Assembly: GCF_900129175.1 (NCBI RefSeq)
Contig: NZ_FQUI01000020.1
Span: forward strand, 1-37,034
DNA: 37,034 nucleotides
Direction of reading: 5' to 3'
From: Marinitoga hydrogenitolerans DSM 16785
GTDB lineage: Bacteria > Thermotogota > Thermotogae > Petrotogales > Petrotogaceae
The stretch's first letter is position 1; each line of letters starts with the position of its first letter. A program made the position numbers and the translations under genes. Below, piece by piece: positions 29,463 to 35,455 of the stretch. The notes under the pieces are model-generated. The model was given only the letters and a program-made list of their open reading frames with translations, searched no databases and was not told the origin of the DNA.

Positions 29463-30728
29463 TCACTCCAATAAAGATTTTTCTTTTAAAATTTGTGGAA
29501 CCCAAAACTTTTCTACTTCAAATTGTTCTCCACTTATCATATTTTTTATAGTAACAGTCTCAGTCTTTAATTCATTTTCACCTATAATTGCAACAAATTT
29601 AGCTTTTATTTTGTTTGCATGTTTCATTTGATTTCTAATGCTTCTTTCAGAGAGATTTAAAAATACCTTTAATCCTTCTTTTTTTAAGATTTTAGATAAT
29701 TTTAACGCTTCAAAATCAGTTTTTTCTCCAGAATAGGCTATATATATATCAATTTTTTCTGGATTTTCAATTTCAATATTTTCTTGTTTTAATGCAAGAA
29801 TAATTCTTTCCACTCCAACACCAAAACCTATAGCAGGTGTTTCTCTTCCGCCAATTTCTTCAACTAAAGAATTATATCTTCCTCCACCTAAAATAGCAGA
29901 TTGAGCACCTAAATCCAGATGTTCAATTTCAAAAGCAGTTTTTGTATAATAATCAAGTCCTCGAACTATTTTTGGATCGACTTCATAATTTATATTTAAT
30001 TCATCTAAATATTTAATAACTTTATTAAAATGAGTTTTACAATCTTCACACAAATGATCTAAAATAACAGGAGCATCTTTAGAATATTTACTATCAACTT
30101 TACAATCTAAAAGGCGCATTATATTTGTCTCATATCTTTTTTGACAATCATGGCACATATTAGGTAATAAAGGGTTATAATAGTTTTTTAATGATTCTTT
30201 ATATTTTGGACGACATTTTTCACACCCTATACTATTAATTTTGATTTTATAATTTTTTAAACCAAAAGCTTTTAATAATTCATCTGCTAAAATTATTATT
30301 TCGGCATCTGAAATTGGGGTATCGGTGCCGAATATTTCAACGCCAATTTGATGAAACTGTCTTTGCCTACCAGCTTGAGGTCTTTCATATCTGAACATTG
30401 GTCCCATATAATAAAGTTTTATGGGAGATCCAAGATTGATCATTGAATTTTCCACATAAGCTCTTACGACAGGAGCTGTTCCTTCAGGTCTTAATGTAAT
30501 AGAACGTCCTCCTTTATCCTTGAATGTATACATTTCTTTTTGTACAATATCAGATGTTTCACCTACACTACGTTTAAATAATTCTGTTGATTCAATTATA
30601 GGAGTTCTAATTTCTTTAAACCCGTATTTTAAAAATATTTCACGTGCTTTGGATTCTACGAAATACCAATATTTAGTTTCTTCACCAAAAATATCTTGAG
30701 TACCTTTTAATCTTTTATACTGCGCCAT
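29463..30728 (-). CDS. hisS: Histidyl-tRNA synthetase
   Basis: Charges tRNA-His. 421 residues, class II. Motif 2 region FRYERPQAGRQRQFHQIGVEIFG; histidine-specific motifs RGLDYYTKTAFE and GGGRYNSLVEEIGG; motif 3 AIGFGVGVERI. A C-terminal anticodon-binding domain follows (~325-421, with IYIAYSGEKTDFEA). A cysteine-rich insertion (CEKCRPKY, CHDCQKRY, CEDCKTHF) lies at ~170-240 and may bind zinc. Initiation looks unusual: a perfect GGAGGTGAG is 18 bases before the ATG, with a small hairpin between. Confidence 0.97.
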   Translation of the reverse strand: MAQYKRLKGTQDIFGEETKYWYFVESKAREIFLKYGFKEIRTPIIESTELFKRSVGETSDIVQKEMYTFKDKGGRSITLRPEGTAPVVRAYVENSMINLGSPIKLYYMGPMFRYERPQAGRQRQFHQIGVEIFGTDTPISDAEIIILADELLKAFGLKNYKIKINSIGCEKCRPKYKESLKNYYNPLLPNMCHDCQKRYETNIMRLLDCKVDSKYSKDAPVILDHLCEDCKTHFNKVIKYLDELNINYEVDPKIVRGLDYYTKTAFEIEHLDLGAQSAILGGGRYNSLVEEIGGRETPAIGFGVGVERIILALKQENIEIENPEKIDIYIAYSGEKTDFEALKLSKILKKEGLKVFLNLSERSIRNQMKHANKIKAKFVAIIGENELKTETVTIKNMISGEQFEVEKFWVPQILKEKSLLE

Positions 30729-30755
30729 ATATTACCCTTAAAAGGGCTCACCTCC
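30729..30755 (-). promoter_or_regulatory. hisS ribosome-binding region with hairpin between Shine-Dalgarno and ATG
   Basis: On the - strand GGAGGTGAG (30755-30747, inside the end of trkH) is followed by CCCTTTTAAGGG (30746-30735), which can fold into a 4-5 bp hairpin, then six bases and ATG. Folded, the effective spacing is about 6 bases; unfolded it is 18. AAGGG at 30739-30735 could instead act as a weak Shine-Dalgarno. Confidence 0.45.
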
Positions 30756-32240
30756 TTCTAATTTAGAAAGATTAATCTGTATTATGTCTTTTATATCCCT
30801 AAATATTTTGATAATAGCAAAGAATATTACAAAGAATTCAAGTCTTCCTAAATACATTCCCATTGTTTCAATCCAGATAATACCTAAAGGTGAATTTGGA
30901 GTAGTTATTCCGACAGATAAACCAACAGCTGATAATGCTGAAGCATATTCAAATAAAGAATCTTCCATTGAATAACCGTAAGATAATAGAACAAGAACAC
31001 CTATAGTATATATTAAGAAATACATAAATACAACGGCAATTACATCTTTTAATGTATCATAGGATATTTTCTTTTTAGAAATTCCTTTATAGACTTCTAT
31101 ATGGAAAATACTGCCTTCAGGTTTAAAGTAACTTTTTATTTGATGAATAATAATTTTCCATATTACAAAAATTCTAAATAATTTCAATCCACCTGAAGTG
31201 GAATCCATCATACCGCCTAATATCATTAATATTGTCATAATCAAAAGGCCAAAATTATTCCAATTATTAAAAGAAACAGTAGAAAATCCTGTTCCTGTTA
31301 AAGCAGAAATAGCCTGGAAGGCAGAGTGACGTAGACCGCCCCAAAATCCGTATAGCATTTTCGTTGTAAAAAATAAAATTAAAGGTATAGATATTATTAA
31401 TATGAAAAGCATAGTTTTAGGTTCTGGATTCTTTTTAAATAAATCTCTTCTTTTCAATGCAGCATAATGGACACCAAATCCCGTACCTCCTGCAATCATC
31501 AAACCCATAATAATAATTTCTGCGTTTATATTATTAAATTCTCCAATACTATTAATTTTTGTGGAAAAACCACCTGTAGCTAAAGCTGTCAGTGTATGGT
31601 TAAAAGAGTCAAAAAAAGACAACTTAGCTATAAATTTTAAAAGGATAATTCCAATTATAGCCCATGATATATAAATACCAAATATAATTTTTGCAGAATC
31701 TCTTAAATTTGGAACAACGTTATCAGTTCTTCCTTCTGCTTGATACAAACCTACGCCCAATGCTCCAGTTGCAATAACCATAATTAATGCAAAACCAGCT
31801 CCGCCAAAGTATTGCATTAAACTGCGCCATAATAGGAAAATTTTTGGTATTTTTGTAACATCAACTAATGTGAGCCCTGTTGTTGTCCAACCACTTGTGG
31901 ATTCAAAAATTGCTTGATGTATATTTAATATTCCTGAAAAGACAAAAGGTAATGCAGAAAAAAATATCGCCAATGTCCATACTAAAAATATTATTACAAT
32001 GGCATCTTGAATATTAATAGCGGAAGTTTTAACATTCCAACTAATTAAAATAAAAAAAGTTCCTGTAAAAATGCTAATAAGTCCAGCTTCTAAAAAACTA
32101 TAAAAAGAATTTAAATCGCGATAAAAAAGAGCTAAAGAGCCAAATAAAATTAATCCAACTCCGAAATATACAAGCATCAATCCAGTATTTTTAAAAATTA
32201 ATTTATATCTATATTTTAAATTAGTAAGGTATTTTGGCAT
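30738..32240 (-). CDS. trkH: Potassium uptake membrane subunit TrkH/KtrB
   Basis: The ion-translocating subunit of a Trk/Ktr K+ transporter, 500 residues with about ten transmembrane helices. The four pore-loop repeats each keep the selectivity-filter glycine: STSGWTTTGLTLVD, LTALATGGFSTK, ISALTGTGFSTVSF and SALSAVGLSVGITT. KKISYDTLKDVIAVVFMYFL belongs to the C-terminal part. The ATG lies four bases after the stop of the second trkA subunit gene and AAGGGATGA precedes it, so pore and gating ring are made together. Confidence 0.95.
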   Translation of the reverse strand: MPKYLTNLKYRYKLIFKNTGLMLVYFGVGLILFGSLALFYRDLNSFYSFLEAGLISIFTGTFFILISWNVKTSAINIQDAIVIIFLVWTLAIFFSALPFVFSGILNIHQAIFESTSGWTTTGLTLVDVTKIPKIFLLWRSLMQYFGGAGFALIMVIATGALGVGLYQAEGRTDNVVPNLRDSAKIIFGIYISWAIIGIILLKFIAKLSFFDSFNHTLTALATGGFSTKINSIGEFNNINAEIIIMGLMIAGGTGFGVHYAALKRRDLFKKNPEPKTMLFILIISIPLILFFTTKMLYGFWGGLRHSAFQAISALTGTGFSTVSFNNWNNFGLLIMTILMILGGMMDSTSGGLKLFRIFVIWKIIIHQIKSYFKPEGSIFHIEVYKGISKKKISYDTLKDVIAVVFMYFLIYTIGVLVLLSYGYSMEDSLFEYASALSAVGLSVGITTPNSPLGIIWIETMGMYLGRLEFFVIFFAIIKIFRDIKDIIQINLSKLEGGEPF

Positions 32241-32244
32241 AATT

Positions 32245-32928
32245 TCATCCCTTCAAAAGTTTAAGTTTTACTTCTGGAACTTTGTCTTTTAATGAAAAGA
32301 TAACTAATTTATCTCCAGGAATTATCTCTGTATTACCTTGTGGAACAAAAATTTCATCTTTTCTAATTAACATACTAACAATAGAATTTTCAGGCATATG
32401 TAAATCTTTTAGTTTTTTATTTGCAGCAAAATCTTGTTTTTTTATTTTGAATTCTATAATAGCTAATTTATCAGCATAAGGATTAAAGAAACTTAAATTT
32501 GTTTGATATTCAATAGAAGCTTCAATTAATTTTTCTATCCAATTTGTAATACTTACAGTTTCAATATGATTTTTAAGAAATAATTTTTCATTTTCTGGAT
32601 AATTCACAAGGGAAAGAACCCTTATATCCTCATATATTTGTTTAACTAACCAAGAAACAACAAAATTAAGCGCATCATCATTAGATAATGAAATCATTCC
32701 GCCTACTCTATTGGGAGCAACGTCAAGAGATTCTAAGAAACTTATTTCTGTAGGGTCATGTAAAATACCTTCTAAATTTGAATAATAAGCTTTTAAAGAT
32801 AAAATTCTGTTTATATTTTCAATATTAGAAGAAATATAAAATACATTATGTCCTTGATACAATAAATTTCTTACAATTGAATAAGCTATGTTCTCTCCTT
32901 CAATTATATAAAAAATTTTATTTTTCAT
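32245..32928 (-). CDS. TrkA subunit B: degenerate Rossmann plus RCK_C domain
   Basis: 227 residues. The N-terminal half looks like a TrkA_N/RCK fold, but the nucleotide loop is degenerate (IIEGENIAYSIVRNLL, not GxGxxG). The C-terminal half is a recognisable RCK_C (TrkA_C) domain, ~150-225: LAIIEFKIKKQDFAANKKLKDL, PENSIVSMLIRKDEIFVPQG and TEIIPGDKLVIF. Together with the upstream 143-residue gene it corresponds to the two-subunit TrkA of T. maritima (TM1088A/TM1088B, as I recall), a hetero-octameric gating ring. The ATG overlaps the upstream stop by four bases. Confidence 0.88.
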   Translation of the reverse strand: MKNKIFYIIEGENIAYSIVRNLLYQGHNVFYISSNIENINRILSLKAYYSNLEGILHDPTEISFLESLDVAPNRVGGMISLSNDDALNFVVSWLVKQIYEDIRVLSLVNYPENEKLFLKNHIETVSITNWIEKLIEASIEYQTNLSFFNPYADKLAIIEFKIKKQDFAANKKLKDLHMPENSIVSMLIRKDEIFVPQGNTEIIPGDKLVIFSLKDKVPEVKLKLLKG

Positions 32929-33356
32929 TTTTTAACACCTTCATTTCCAACTAATTCATCAACAGAATGTTCAATTGGACAGAAAATATTCAATCCAGCT
33001 TTTTCAAAAATATTTTTTTTATGGGGGTCATTAACCCTTGCAATTATTTCAATATTTTTATTTTTTGATTTATAAAAAGTATTACATGCATTAGCAAGCA
33101 TAAAATTCAAGTTATCATCTGGAGTAACTATATATATTAAATCAGCTTTTTCAGCCTTTACTTGTTCTAAAATAGCAATATCAGAACTATCAACTACCAT
33201 CGAAAATCCTGTAAAATTATATTTTTTTAAACGTTCTAATGCGTCAGGAGATTTGTCAACAACAATCACATTATGATCTTTAGAAAATCGTCTAGCTAAT
33301 TCAGAACCCAATCTTCCACATCCAATAATGATTATATATTTTATTTTATTTTTCAT
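32925..33356 (-). CDS. TrkA subunit A: NAD(H)-binding TrkA_N domain only
   Basis: 143 residues, a lone TrkA_N (RCK_N) domain. The dinucleotide loop is intact (IIIGCGRLGSELARRF, GxGxxG), followed by NVIVVDKSPDALERL with the ribose-binding Asp, GFSMVVDSSD and ADLIYIVTPDDNLNFMLA. It lacks RCK_C, which the next gene supplies. It starts inside the end of the receiver gene (11-base overlap) after GGAGG, so the receiver protein and K+ regulation are translationally linked. Confidence 0.92.
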   Translation of the reverse strand: MKNKIKYIIIIGCGRLGSELARRFSKDHNVIVVDKSPDALERLKKYNFTGFSMVVDSSDIAILEQVKAEKADLIYIVTPDDNLNFMLANACNTFYKSKNKNIEIIARVNDPHKKNIFEKAGLNIFCPIEHSVDELVGNEGVKK

Positions 33357-34029
33357 TATTCTGAGCCTCCAGAATTTTAACTATAATATTTTCCAGTTCT
33401 TTATCTTTAATAGAATTTTCTGCAAGAGCAAGTGCAGCATTATAATGTTTTTTTAATAAATTAATATTATTTAACTTTTTCCAATATAGATAACCAAGTA
33501 AAAAATGTCCCTCATATCTATTAGGATTATCAAATATTAAATTACTTATTTTATCTTCCAGCATGAAAAATTCCAAATTCTCATTTTTGTCAAATTTTAT
33601 CAATTCATTTCGTAATTTTCTATATTTACTTTCAAAAGTTTCACCTTTAAATATTGATTCAGCTAGCATTATAGAAAATTCCTCTGGAACTATAGGTTTT
33701 TCTATCCAGTCCATAGCACCTATTTTAAAAATATTTTTTATAGAATTTAAATTCATTTTATTACTTACAATATATAGAGGGGTTCTAGGTTGATATGTTT
33801 TTAATATTTCTAAATAATCGGTGATATTTTCACCATGAAGTTCTATTTCGCTTATTATTAACGAATATTTTTCTTTAAAATTATCTTCGTTATTTAAAAA
33901 ATCTTTTAATTCATTTAAAGTATAAATAACAGTATTGATATAATCTACATTTTGAAGGTAATTATCAATCATCTTTTCATATAATATAACTATTTCTGGT
34001 GAATCATCAATAATTAATATTTTATGCAT
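33346..34029 (-). CDS. Atypical response regulator: receiver lacking phospho-Asp, plus helical tail
   Basis: 227 residues from ATG at 34027-34029 (TTAGGAGGA before it). The N-terminal receiver domain (~1-120) keeps the acidic pair D8-D9 (ILIIDDSPE), S89 (YIVSN) and K111 (WIEKPIVPEEF), but the phospho-acceptor position is Glu61 (SLIISEIELHG) where LxxxD is expected. Glu can mimic phosphorylation, so the domain may be locked active or work as a binding module. The C-terminal ~100 residues are helical with a TPR-like pattern (NRYEGHFLLGYLYWKKLN, LLKKHYNAALALAENS). There is no DNA-binding domain. It is placed between hslU and trkA with overlap to trkA. Confidence 0.85.
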   Translation of the reverse strand: MHKILIIDDSPEIVILYEKMIDNYLQNVDYINTVIYTLNELKDFLNNEDNFKEKYSLIISEIELHGENITDYLEILKTYQPRTPLYIVSNKMNLNSIKNIFKIGAMDWIEKPIVPEEFSIMLAESIFKGETFESKYRKLRNELIKFDKNENLEFFMLEDKISNLIFDNPNRYEGHFLLGYLYWKKLNNINLLKKHYNAALALAENSIKDKELENIIVKILEAQNNEK

Positions 34030-34039
34030 AAAAATCCTC

Positions 34040-35431
34040 CTAAAGGACAAATTCGCTCAAATCCTTGTCTTCAGCGAGTTTTCCTATTCTTTGTTTTACA
34101 TATTCTTTTGTAATTTGTATTTCCACTTCAGAACCTAAAGGTGCTTCAAAAGAAACTTCTTCAAGTACCTTTTCAACAACAGTATATAATCTCCTAGCAC
34201 CAATATTCTCAATTTTTTCATTTAAATTAAATGCAATCTTAGCAATTTCATTTATACCCTCATCGGTAAATACTAAATTTACCCCATCTGTTTCTAACAA
34301 CGCTTTGTATTGTTTGGTAACAGCATTTTCAGGTTCAACTAATATTCTAACAAAATCTTTTTCTGTTAATGCATCTAATTCAACTCTAATTGGGAATCTG
34401 CCCTGCATTTCGGGAATTAGATCAGAAGGTTTAGCAACATGAAAAGCTCCAGCAGCAATAAATAACATATAATCTGTTTTTATTGGACCGTGTTTTGTTA
34501 TAACAGTTGTACCTTCAACTATAGGTAATAAATCTCTCTGAACTCCTTCACGTGAAACATCCGGGCCGGAACTTCCTGATTTTGCAGCTATTTTATCCAT
34601 CTCATCAATAAATATAATACCCCTATTTTGAGCTCTATCTAGTGCTTCCTGTATCATTTTATCTTTATCAATCAGCTTTTCTGCTTCCATTGGTAATAAA
34701 ACTTTTCTAGCATCTTTAATTTTCATCTTTTTTCTGATTGTTTTTTTAGGCATCATATTTGAAAACATTTCGCCAATTTGTATACCCATATCTTCAAATT
34801 CTGGGCCAAGTCCGGCAAACATAGGAGCAGCACTTTCTTCAACTTCAATCTCGATTTCAATATCTTCCAATTCTTTATTTTTTAATTTTTGTTTTAATTG
34901 AGCTCTTCTTTCAAGGTTATTTGTATCTTGAACAGGTTCTTCTTTCCTTGGCTGATTTTGGCCGAACATATTTAATAATTCCATAAAATTACCTGCTGAA
35001 GGTTGTCTTGATTTTTTTACACCCATTAAAGCATCTAATATTTTTTCATTTACCATTTCTTCAGCTTTTTCTTCAACTTCAATCATCATTTCATTTCTTA
35101 CCATGTTTATAGAAACATCAACTAATTCTCTTATCATAGATTCAACATTTTTTCCAACATAACCAACCTCAGTAAATCTTGTAGCTTCAACCTTAATAAA
35201 TGGCGCATTAGCAATTTGAGCTAATCTTCGTGCAATCTCAGTTTTTCCCACCCCAGTAGGTCCTATCATCAATATATTTTTTGGCATTATCTCTTTTTTT
35301 ATTTCTTCTGGTAATTTTAATCTTCTGTACCTATTTCTTAGAGCTACAGCAACAGCTTTCTTAGCGTCATTTTGTCCTATGATGAATTTATCTAATTCTC
35401 TAACAATTTCCTTTGGAGTTAATTCTACCAT
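34040..35431 (-). CDS. hslU: ATP-dependent protease ATPase subunit HslU
   Basis: The AAA+ unfoldase that feeds the HslV peptidase. 463 residues from ATG at 35429-35431 after GGAGGTG. Walker A GPTGVGKT (57-64), pore loop EVGYVGKNVESM (~90), an I-domain insertion (~110-240), Walker B GIIFIDEMDK, sensor region EMQGRFPIRVELDALTE and ENIGARRLYTVVEKVLEE. The C-terminal tail DLSEFVL is close to the family tail that inserts into HslV, so an HslV partner is expected although no hslV is adjacent. Ten bases separate it from the receiver gene. Confidence 0.96.
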   Translation of the reverse strand: MVELTPKEIVRELDKFIIGQNDAKKAVAVALRNRYRRLKLPEEIKKEIMPKNILMIGPTGVGKTEIARRLAQIANAPFIKVEATRFTEVGYVGKNVESMIRELVDVSINMVRNEMMIEVEEKAEEMVNEKILDALMGVKKSRQPSAGNFMELLNMFGQNQPRKEEPVQDTNNLERRAQLKQKLKNKELEDIEIEIEVEESAAPMFAGLGPEFEDMGIQIGEMFSNMMPKKTIRKKMKIKDARKVLLPMEAEKLIDKDKMIQEALDRAQNRGIIFIDEMDKIAAKSGSSGPDVSREGVQRDLLPIVEGTTVITKHGPIKTDYMLFIAAGAFHVAKPSDLIPEMQGRFPIRVELDALTEKDFVRILVEPENAVTKQYKALLETDGVNLVFTDEGINEIAKIAFNLNEKIENIGARRLYTVVEKVLEEVSFEAPLGSEVEIQITKEYVKQRIGKLAEDKDLSEFVL

Positions 35432-35455
35432 ATTTACACCTCCGCGCAAAGTTTC

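Follow-up and report, generated by a model that had tools for sequence, protein, structure and literature searches.

This locus raises the question of what a receiver domain with glutamate in place of its phospho-acceptor aspartate, joined to a helical C-terminal half, does directly upstream of potassium-uptake genes. The window, i.e. the whole stretch of 37,034 nucleotides analysed from Marinitoga hydrogenitolerans DSM 16785, carries on its minus strand the gene of a 227-aa REC-TPR response regulator (33346..34029), delimited by ORF and profile search, with an ATG start behind AGGAGG. This ATG lies 10 bases past the stop codon of hslU (34040..35434, minus strand), a gene that is the upstream neighbour in its own family only and that we judge, from gene neighbourhoods, to be outside the system. 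Downstream on the same strand come trkA1 (32925..33356; 143 aa, TrkA_N domain only), trkA2 (32245..32928; 227 aa, TrkA_N and TrkA_C) and trkH (30738..32240), which Pfam identifies as the gene of the 500-aa potassium-uptake membrane subunit. By Pfam and best solved relatives, trkA1 and trkA2 are related to TM1088A and TM1088B. With separate TrkA_N-only and TrkA_N+TrkA_C genes plus trkH, the window contains the gene set of a two-subunit Trk of the TM1088A/B type. The two trkA genes overlap by 4 bases, and trkH and hisS follow.

A re-reading of the sequence bore out the initial annotation as to the ORF, its frame, residues D8, D9, E61, S89 and K111, and an 11-base overlap with a trkA subunit, which corresponds to positions 33346..33356 (minus strand) shared with trkA1. 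Conservation of this overlap in Thermotogota had been proposed as a check. The trkA1 ATG lies at -11 in 7/7 genomes of the window's genus, while the other four genera of the family have gaps of 8-15 bases instead, so the overlap is, as far as these sequences tell, a genus trait; the comparison of start codons leaves aside 19 Thermotogota genomes whose trkA1 motif escaped the pattern. Elsewhere in the window, on the plus strand, adjacent ORFs at 502-1188 and 1240-2529 encode a dCache sensor and a HAMP-MCP signalling domain; they look like two parts of a single chemoreceptor gene split by a frameshift or an assembly error.

The receiver domain occupies residues 1-126 (33652..34029, minus strand). 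The protein matches Pfam Response_reg (PF00072) over residues 4-118 with 40.4 bits (cut-off 30.2), and its model matches solved receivers in the PDB over residues 1-129, with Z up to 18.8 (121 residues, rmsd 1.6). By sequence and alignment, the acidic pair D8 D9 (34003..34008), the Thr/Ser switch position S89 (33763..33765) and the conserved lysine K111 (33697..33699) are present, all on the minus strand. The canonical phosphorylatable Asp is missing, its codon 61 being GAA for Glu (33847..33849, minus strand). The protein therefore combines a receiver fold with a replaced acceptor Asp, the two features of an aspartate-less receiver (ALR).

The C-terminal half (residues 128-227; 33349..33648, minus strand) is TPR-like, judging from Pfam matches of relatives, their alignment, the family profile and weak matches of a model. 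Among five relatives scanned, the C-terminal halves of four (L074, L084, L066 and L050) pass the Pfam TPR cut-off and the fifth (L038) falls slightly under it (26.4 vs 27). The window's own half gave no TPR match when scanned alone against Pfam; it aligns with the TPR-positive relatives, and the family profile matches engineered or consensus TPR proteins over positions 133-199. This half was modelled alone, since whole-protein fold searches filled with receiver matches, and the model shows five helices; the solved structures that it resembles are mostly TPR proteins, all at weak scores (best E 0.076, none to E 0.001). Domain scans found no DNA-binding domain in the window protein or in the relatives scanned. 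A TPR-like region replacing a DNA-binding output had been claimed for this gene; the TPR-like half is retained, but it is the general rule in the whole group and not a local replacement.

A profile of 22 sequences was run over 103 genomes of the mostly thermophilic phylum Thermotogota, and full-length relatives were found at 71 places in 69 of them. The search shows a sharp gap between the weakest member (1.3e-38) and the next match, which belongs to ordinary receivers (1.2e-25). Only the 71 places up to E 1.3e-38 were counted; at a loose cut-off all 103 genomes match through ordinary receivers. The first search, with the window protein alone (73/103 genomes, E 0.001), had ordinary receivers mixed in and was replaced. 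At 64 of the 71 places the gene lies at most 300 bases upstream of trkA1 on the same strand, in the order trkA1-trkA2-trkH (TM1088A/B type). Such an arrangement is far from chance, and the random placement in related genomes that had been named as counter-evidence was not seen. The association with Trk potassium uptake claimed at the outset is upheld by this linkage and by its recurrence outside the phylum. As a full-length profile match directly upstream of trkA1, the window protein belongs to the group that we define as REC-TPR of Trk operons.

Families are labelled here as f1 (the window's own, Petrotogaceae), f2, f9, f10 and f11, and genera by g-numbers. Two of the seven other places end at a contig edge (G034; contig C51 of G031), and five, all in f10, are truly elsewhere. 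At the f10 loci L133, L134, L135, L136 and L147, a gene of about 254 aa overlaps the receiver-TPR gene (e.g. L136:7300-8064). It has no Pfam or NCBIfam match and may be a new partner of a receiver-TPR protein that left the trk operon. There are also 22 Thermotogota genomes with trkA1 but without such a receiver, and in one receiver-less genome the trkA1 product is identical to TM1088A over 143 residues. Since the receiver gene is missing there and in nine f1 genomes with trkA1, Trk can work without it. Two further observations concern the operon itself. In G067 (f9), the operon is split by a gene for an IS1182-family transposase (L128:3877-5466), located between trkA1 and trkA2 and oriented as they are. 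The histidine-tRNA ligase gene hisS, found after trkH in the window (29463-30728), is also present in the f2 and f10 loci L114-L118, L143 and L144, making it another neighbour that the trk operon has kept for long.

The acceptor position was read from an alignment of 76 sequences, the 71 Thermotogota places plus 5 from outside. Glu is found in 11/11 members of f1 (7/7 within the genus) and once in f11 (G100), and Asp in the 59 remaining Thermotogota members and in 5/5 outside sequences. The f1 sequences form a single clade (SH-aLRT 100) in the receiver tree, on which two changes account for Glu; this is a quick tree with long branches, in which the place of f1 is unsure. As read from alignment and tree, Glu is a derived state that arose twice, lineage-specific and not a founding property of the group. 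Orthologues with Asp, which the initial annotation regarded as evidence against its phosphorylation-independent scaffold, do exist outside f1 (59/71 places). For this reason phosphorylation independence, which the uniform Glu of f1 fits, is narrowed to a lineage-specific derived state.

All five canonical positions (two Asp, Asp, Ser/Thr and Lys) are intact in 52/71 Thermotogota members. D8 and D9 had been described as conserved, and both are present in the window; in the relatives this does not hold, as position 8 is Glu in 2/7 members of the genus and in 4/4 other genera of f1 (6/11 in total). The second acid, position 9, is Glu in 3/11 f1 members, and both acids are Glu in 3/11, the two positions being always acidic within the family (11/11). 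Residues S89, K111, P169, H175, H195 and L202 are kept in all 11. In the f10 receivers (5/5) the second acid is changed to Ala or Ser and the Ser/Thr to Gly, in G018 both the first Asp and the Lys are gone, and G019 has Asn at position 9. Across the aligned sequences, the phospho-site has been damaged repeatedly, while linkage to trk persists, f10 excepted.

The window receiver is an ALR, a known kind. In the excerpted text of the ALR survey (PMC4395418), Glu is the commonest acceptor replacement (26%), and ALRs with Glu for Asp keep the Thr/Ser and Lys positions, as the window receiver does. Three points set the window protein apart from the ALRs of that excerpted text: its output is TPR-like and not a DNA-binding domain; the class Thermotogae is among the five listed there as having no ALRs, whereas here all 11 members of one Thermotogota family have one; and Asp-bearing orthologues in the same operon are also known. 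Replacement of Asp by Glu can mimic phosphorylation, though often not by itself (PMC4395418, same excerpts), so the constitutively active state proposed initially is just one possibility for this receiver.

A scan of genome contigs with follow-up searches found the same receiver-TPR architecture in Clostridia and Cyanobacteria. Twenty outside places were compared, and trk genes lie directly downstream at 16 of them. Twelve places have the order kinase - stand-alone receiver - receiver-TPR - trkA1 - trkA2. In 11 of these a trkH was seen; the twelfth stretch ends before any trkH could show. One cyanobacterial place has kinase - receiver-TPR - trkA1 - trkA2 - trkH, and in three Clostridia the pair kinase - receiver-TPR precedes other trkA or trkA/trkH-like genes. 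A KdpD-type potassium-sensor gene comes after the receiver-TPR gene in one cyanobacterium, and no potassium gene was found within 1.5 kb at three of the 20 places. The kinases scanned have HAMP, PAS, HisKA and HATPase domains. The distribution in Clostridia is sporadic (at least 8/391 genomes at E 1e-45 and at least 8/198 at 1e-60), and the cyanobacterial class has at least 3/145 genomes; these counts are lower bounds, from the best 8-21 candidates scored per genome. The receiver-TPR proteins of the planctomycete G107 (L176, L178 and L182) have no trk gene nearby and were left out of the 20 places. Also outside this count is L084 (Tissierella, kinase upstream), whose stretch ends 250 bases past the gene.

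In Coleofasciculus (L066:4989-6885) the receiver-TPR gene is directly followed by a short KdpD with KdpD and Usp domains, another potassium link, in which the domain scan found no kinase core. Two Thermotogota genomes (L122 and L148) have a second copy of the kinase-REC-REC-TPR type besides the usual one. On the tree, the receiver-TPR proteins of these second copies cluster with those of Clostridia and of one cyanobacterium, which suggests transfer or, in the case of L148, a small MAG contig, contamination.

With a probability of roughly 0.58, we read the protein as a receiver-TPR response regulator dedicated to the two-subunit Trk system of potassium uptake. It would exert its control at the protein level, the likeliest route being docking on the TrkA ring (or TrkH), and would have become a pseudo-receiver in Petrotogaceae. 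A protein-level regulator of the ring is the best explanation because it is a TPR receiver with no DNA-binding domain, lies in the same operon and is kinase-linked in other phyla. The TPR half would dock on the TrkA gating ring (or TrkH), and docking would shift the nucleotide-controlled gating of the ring; both this contact and the effect on gating are suggested by genomic association. In the ancestral switch, a histidine kinase would phosphorylate the Asp. In Petrotogaceae, Glu has taken the acceptor position, and the protein is best regarded as a pseudo-receiver without aspartate; its amount, a binding partner or another ligand, and not phosphorylation, would set its influence on the ring. 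Classical phospho-control is unlikely in this family, as the Asp is missing and there is no kinase in the operon. The f10 members (5/5) that are not beside trkA, the receiver-TPR proteins of G107 without trk, and the genomes with a receiver-less Trk all count against this explanation, as does the faster change of the protein relative to its neighbours within the genus. More tentatively, with somewhat less than an even chance, the group would represent a two-component system with a channel as its output, in which kinase, receiver and receiver-TPR protein have the TrkA gating ring as their direct target. The architecture in question occurs in Clostridia, one cyanobacterium and, kinase-free, most Thermotogota; in Petrotogaceae, the Asp-to-Glu change would have made of it a kinase-free, phosphorylation-independent transporter subunit.

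The strongest alternative is that the gene is a fading relic. Petrotogaceae would have lost the signalling input, the receiver would be decaying towards loss, and its position would be inherited synteny, perhaps with translational coupling through the overlap. The acidic pair drifting to Glu in f1 is what this would predict, and the 11-base overlap is absent in the other four f1 genera. Moreover, the receiver-less genera g2, g3 and g6 form one clade (100/100), so a single clean loss suffices, and within the genus the receiver protein evolves at about double the rate of its neighbours. Against decay, dN/dS of the receiver gene is 0.04-0.15 over 21 pairs of the genus, compared with 0.02-0.13 for trkA1, trkA2, hslU and trkH in the same pairs; with dS close to 1 or higher in most pairs, these ratios are rough, and the only clearly unsaturated pair (G039-G040) gives 0.038. 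The range makes a decaying pseudogene less likely. In addition, no frame break was found in the 11 f1 ORFs, and Glu61, S89, K111, P169, H175 and H195 are kept in all of them although identity between the window protein and the other f1 genera is just 37-42%. The codon comparisons indicate that the gene is under purifying selection, clearly constrained though evolving faster than its neighbours, and we consider the relic explanation unlikely.

Still less probable, at about one chance in eight, would be a protein that is still a phospho-switch, with Glu61 or another residue being modified, or with a stand-alone receiver or kinase acting on it by binding. The retention of S89 and K111 and of acids only at positions 8 and 9 in 11/11 f1 members would suit a working switch, and Glu can in principle be modified, according to the excerpts of PMC4395418; the same excerpts know of no case in which phosphorylation of Glu plays a part in the signalling of bacteria. 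Both acids being Glu in three of the 11 members speaks against it as well, and the f1 copies inspected have no kinase gene in the stretch from hslU to trkH.

TPR domains generally bind proteins, and the TPR half could instead recruit a transcription factor, which would make the protein a transcriptional or post-transcriptional regulator of the trk operon acting via a partner. A local transcriptional regulator would show a similar co-location with the genes it regulates. Domain scans found no DNA- or RNA-binding domain, however, and the trk genes are the only constantly linked genes in the loci tabulated, which leaves this explanation a very small probability.

An adaptor role for the neighbouring HslUV protease, or HslU as the partner as the initial annotation had offered as an alternative, has next to no likelihood and is dismissed here: hslU lies upstream throughout f1, 10 bases away in the window, but among the 40 context loci whose neighbourhoods were tabulated it precedes the receiver gene only in f1, the upstream genes being feoA-feoB plus a small ORF in f2 (g10-g12), pgk-tpi in f9, purA in g13 and other genes in the rest, with trkA1 remaining downstream, and hslU persists, running directly into trkA1, where the receiver is gone (g2, g3 and g6; four loci). 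On the evidence of gene order, the constant neighbour is trkA and not hslU. At L131:5238-7193, phosphoglycerate kinase and triosephosphate isomerase form one ORF, while in L130 and L132 this cluster has them as two ORFs.

Other proteins are known to control these transporters. Lee et al. are said to have reported in 2007 that EIIANtr regulates the TrkA potassium transporter in E. coli, which would resemble the regulator proposed here in being a phosphorylation-switched protein acting on TrkA. EIIANtr is a PTS protein, unrelated to receivers and not known to be encoded beside trkA. KdpD/KdpE, together with KdpD serine-kinase control of KdpFABC, is alike in that two-component proteins control a potassium transporter, including a post-translational arm; in the excerpts of PMC11018627, KdpE binds DNA and that arm is the kinase activity of KdpD, whereas the window protein is a receiver-TPR without DNA-binding domain and the system it belongs to is Trk instead of Kdp. 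Gating of TrkH by TrkA rings depends on ADP/ATP (excerpts of PMC6987127). The best solved relatives of the window's trkA1 and trkA2 are those of the Thermotoga maritima TM1088A:TM1088B ring (PDB 3l4b), a mixed octameric two-subunit ring according to the excerpts of PMC4380455. The genome with the identical TM1088A has a rhomboid gene in that position and no receiver-TPR gene, and the term response regulator is absent from the main text of PMC4380455 as excerpted. Titles and abstract starts of the open-licence literature gave no recognisable description of a receiver-TPR protein with a link to TrkA; most subscription journals lie outside this scope, and the association may be described elsewhere.

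Response regulators are mostly regarded as gene switches. If the proposed protein-level control of the TrkA ring is true, two-component signalling would set membrane transport directly, with a receiver-TPR protein tied to a potassium-channel ring in three phyla. A series is found before the same trkA genes, from Asp with a kinase to Asp without a kinase, to Glu without a kinase and to loss of the gene, and it lets experiments ask how a phospho-switch becomes a fixed subunit. The receiver would also add an input that is absent from the organism whose two-subunit ring was crystallised.
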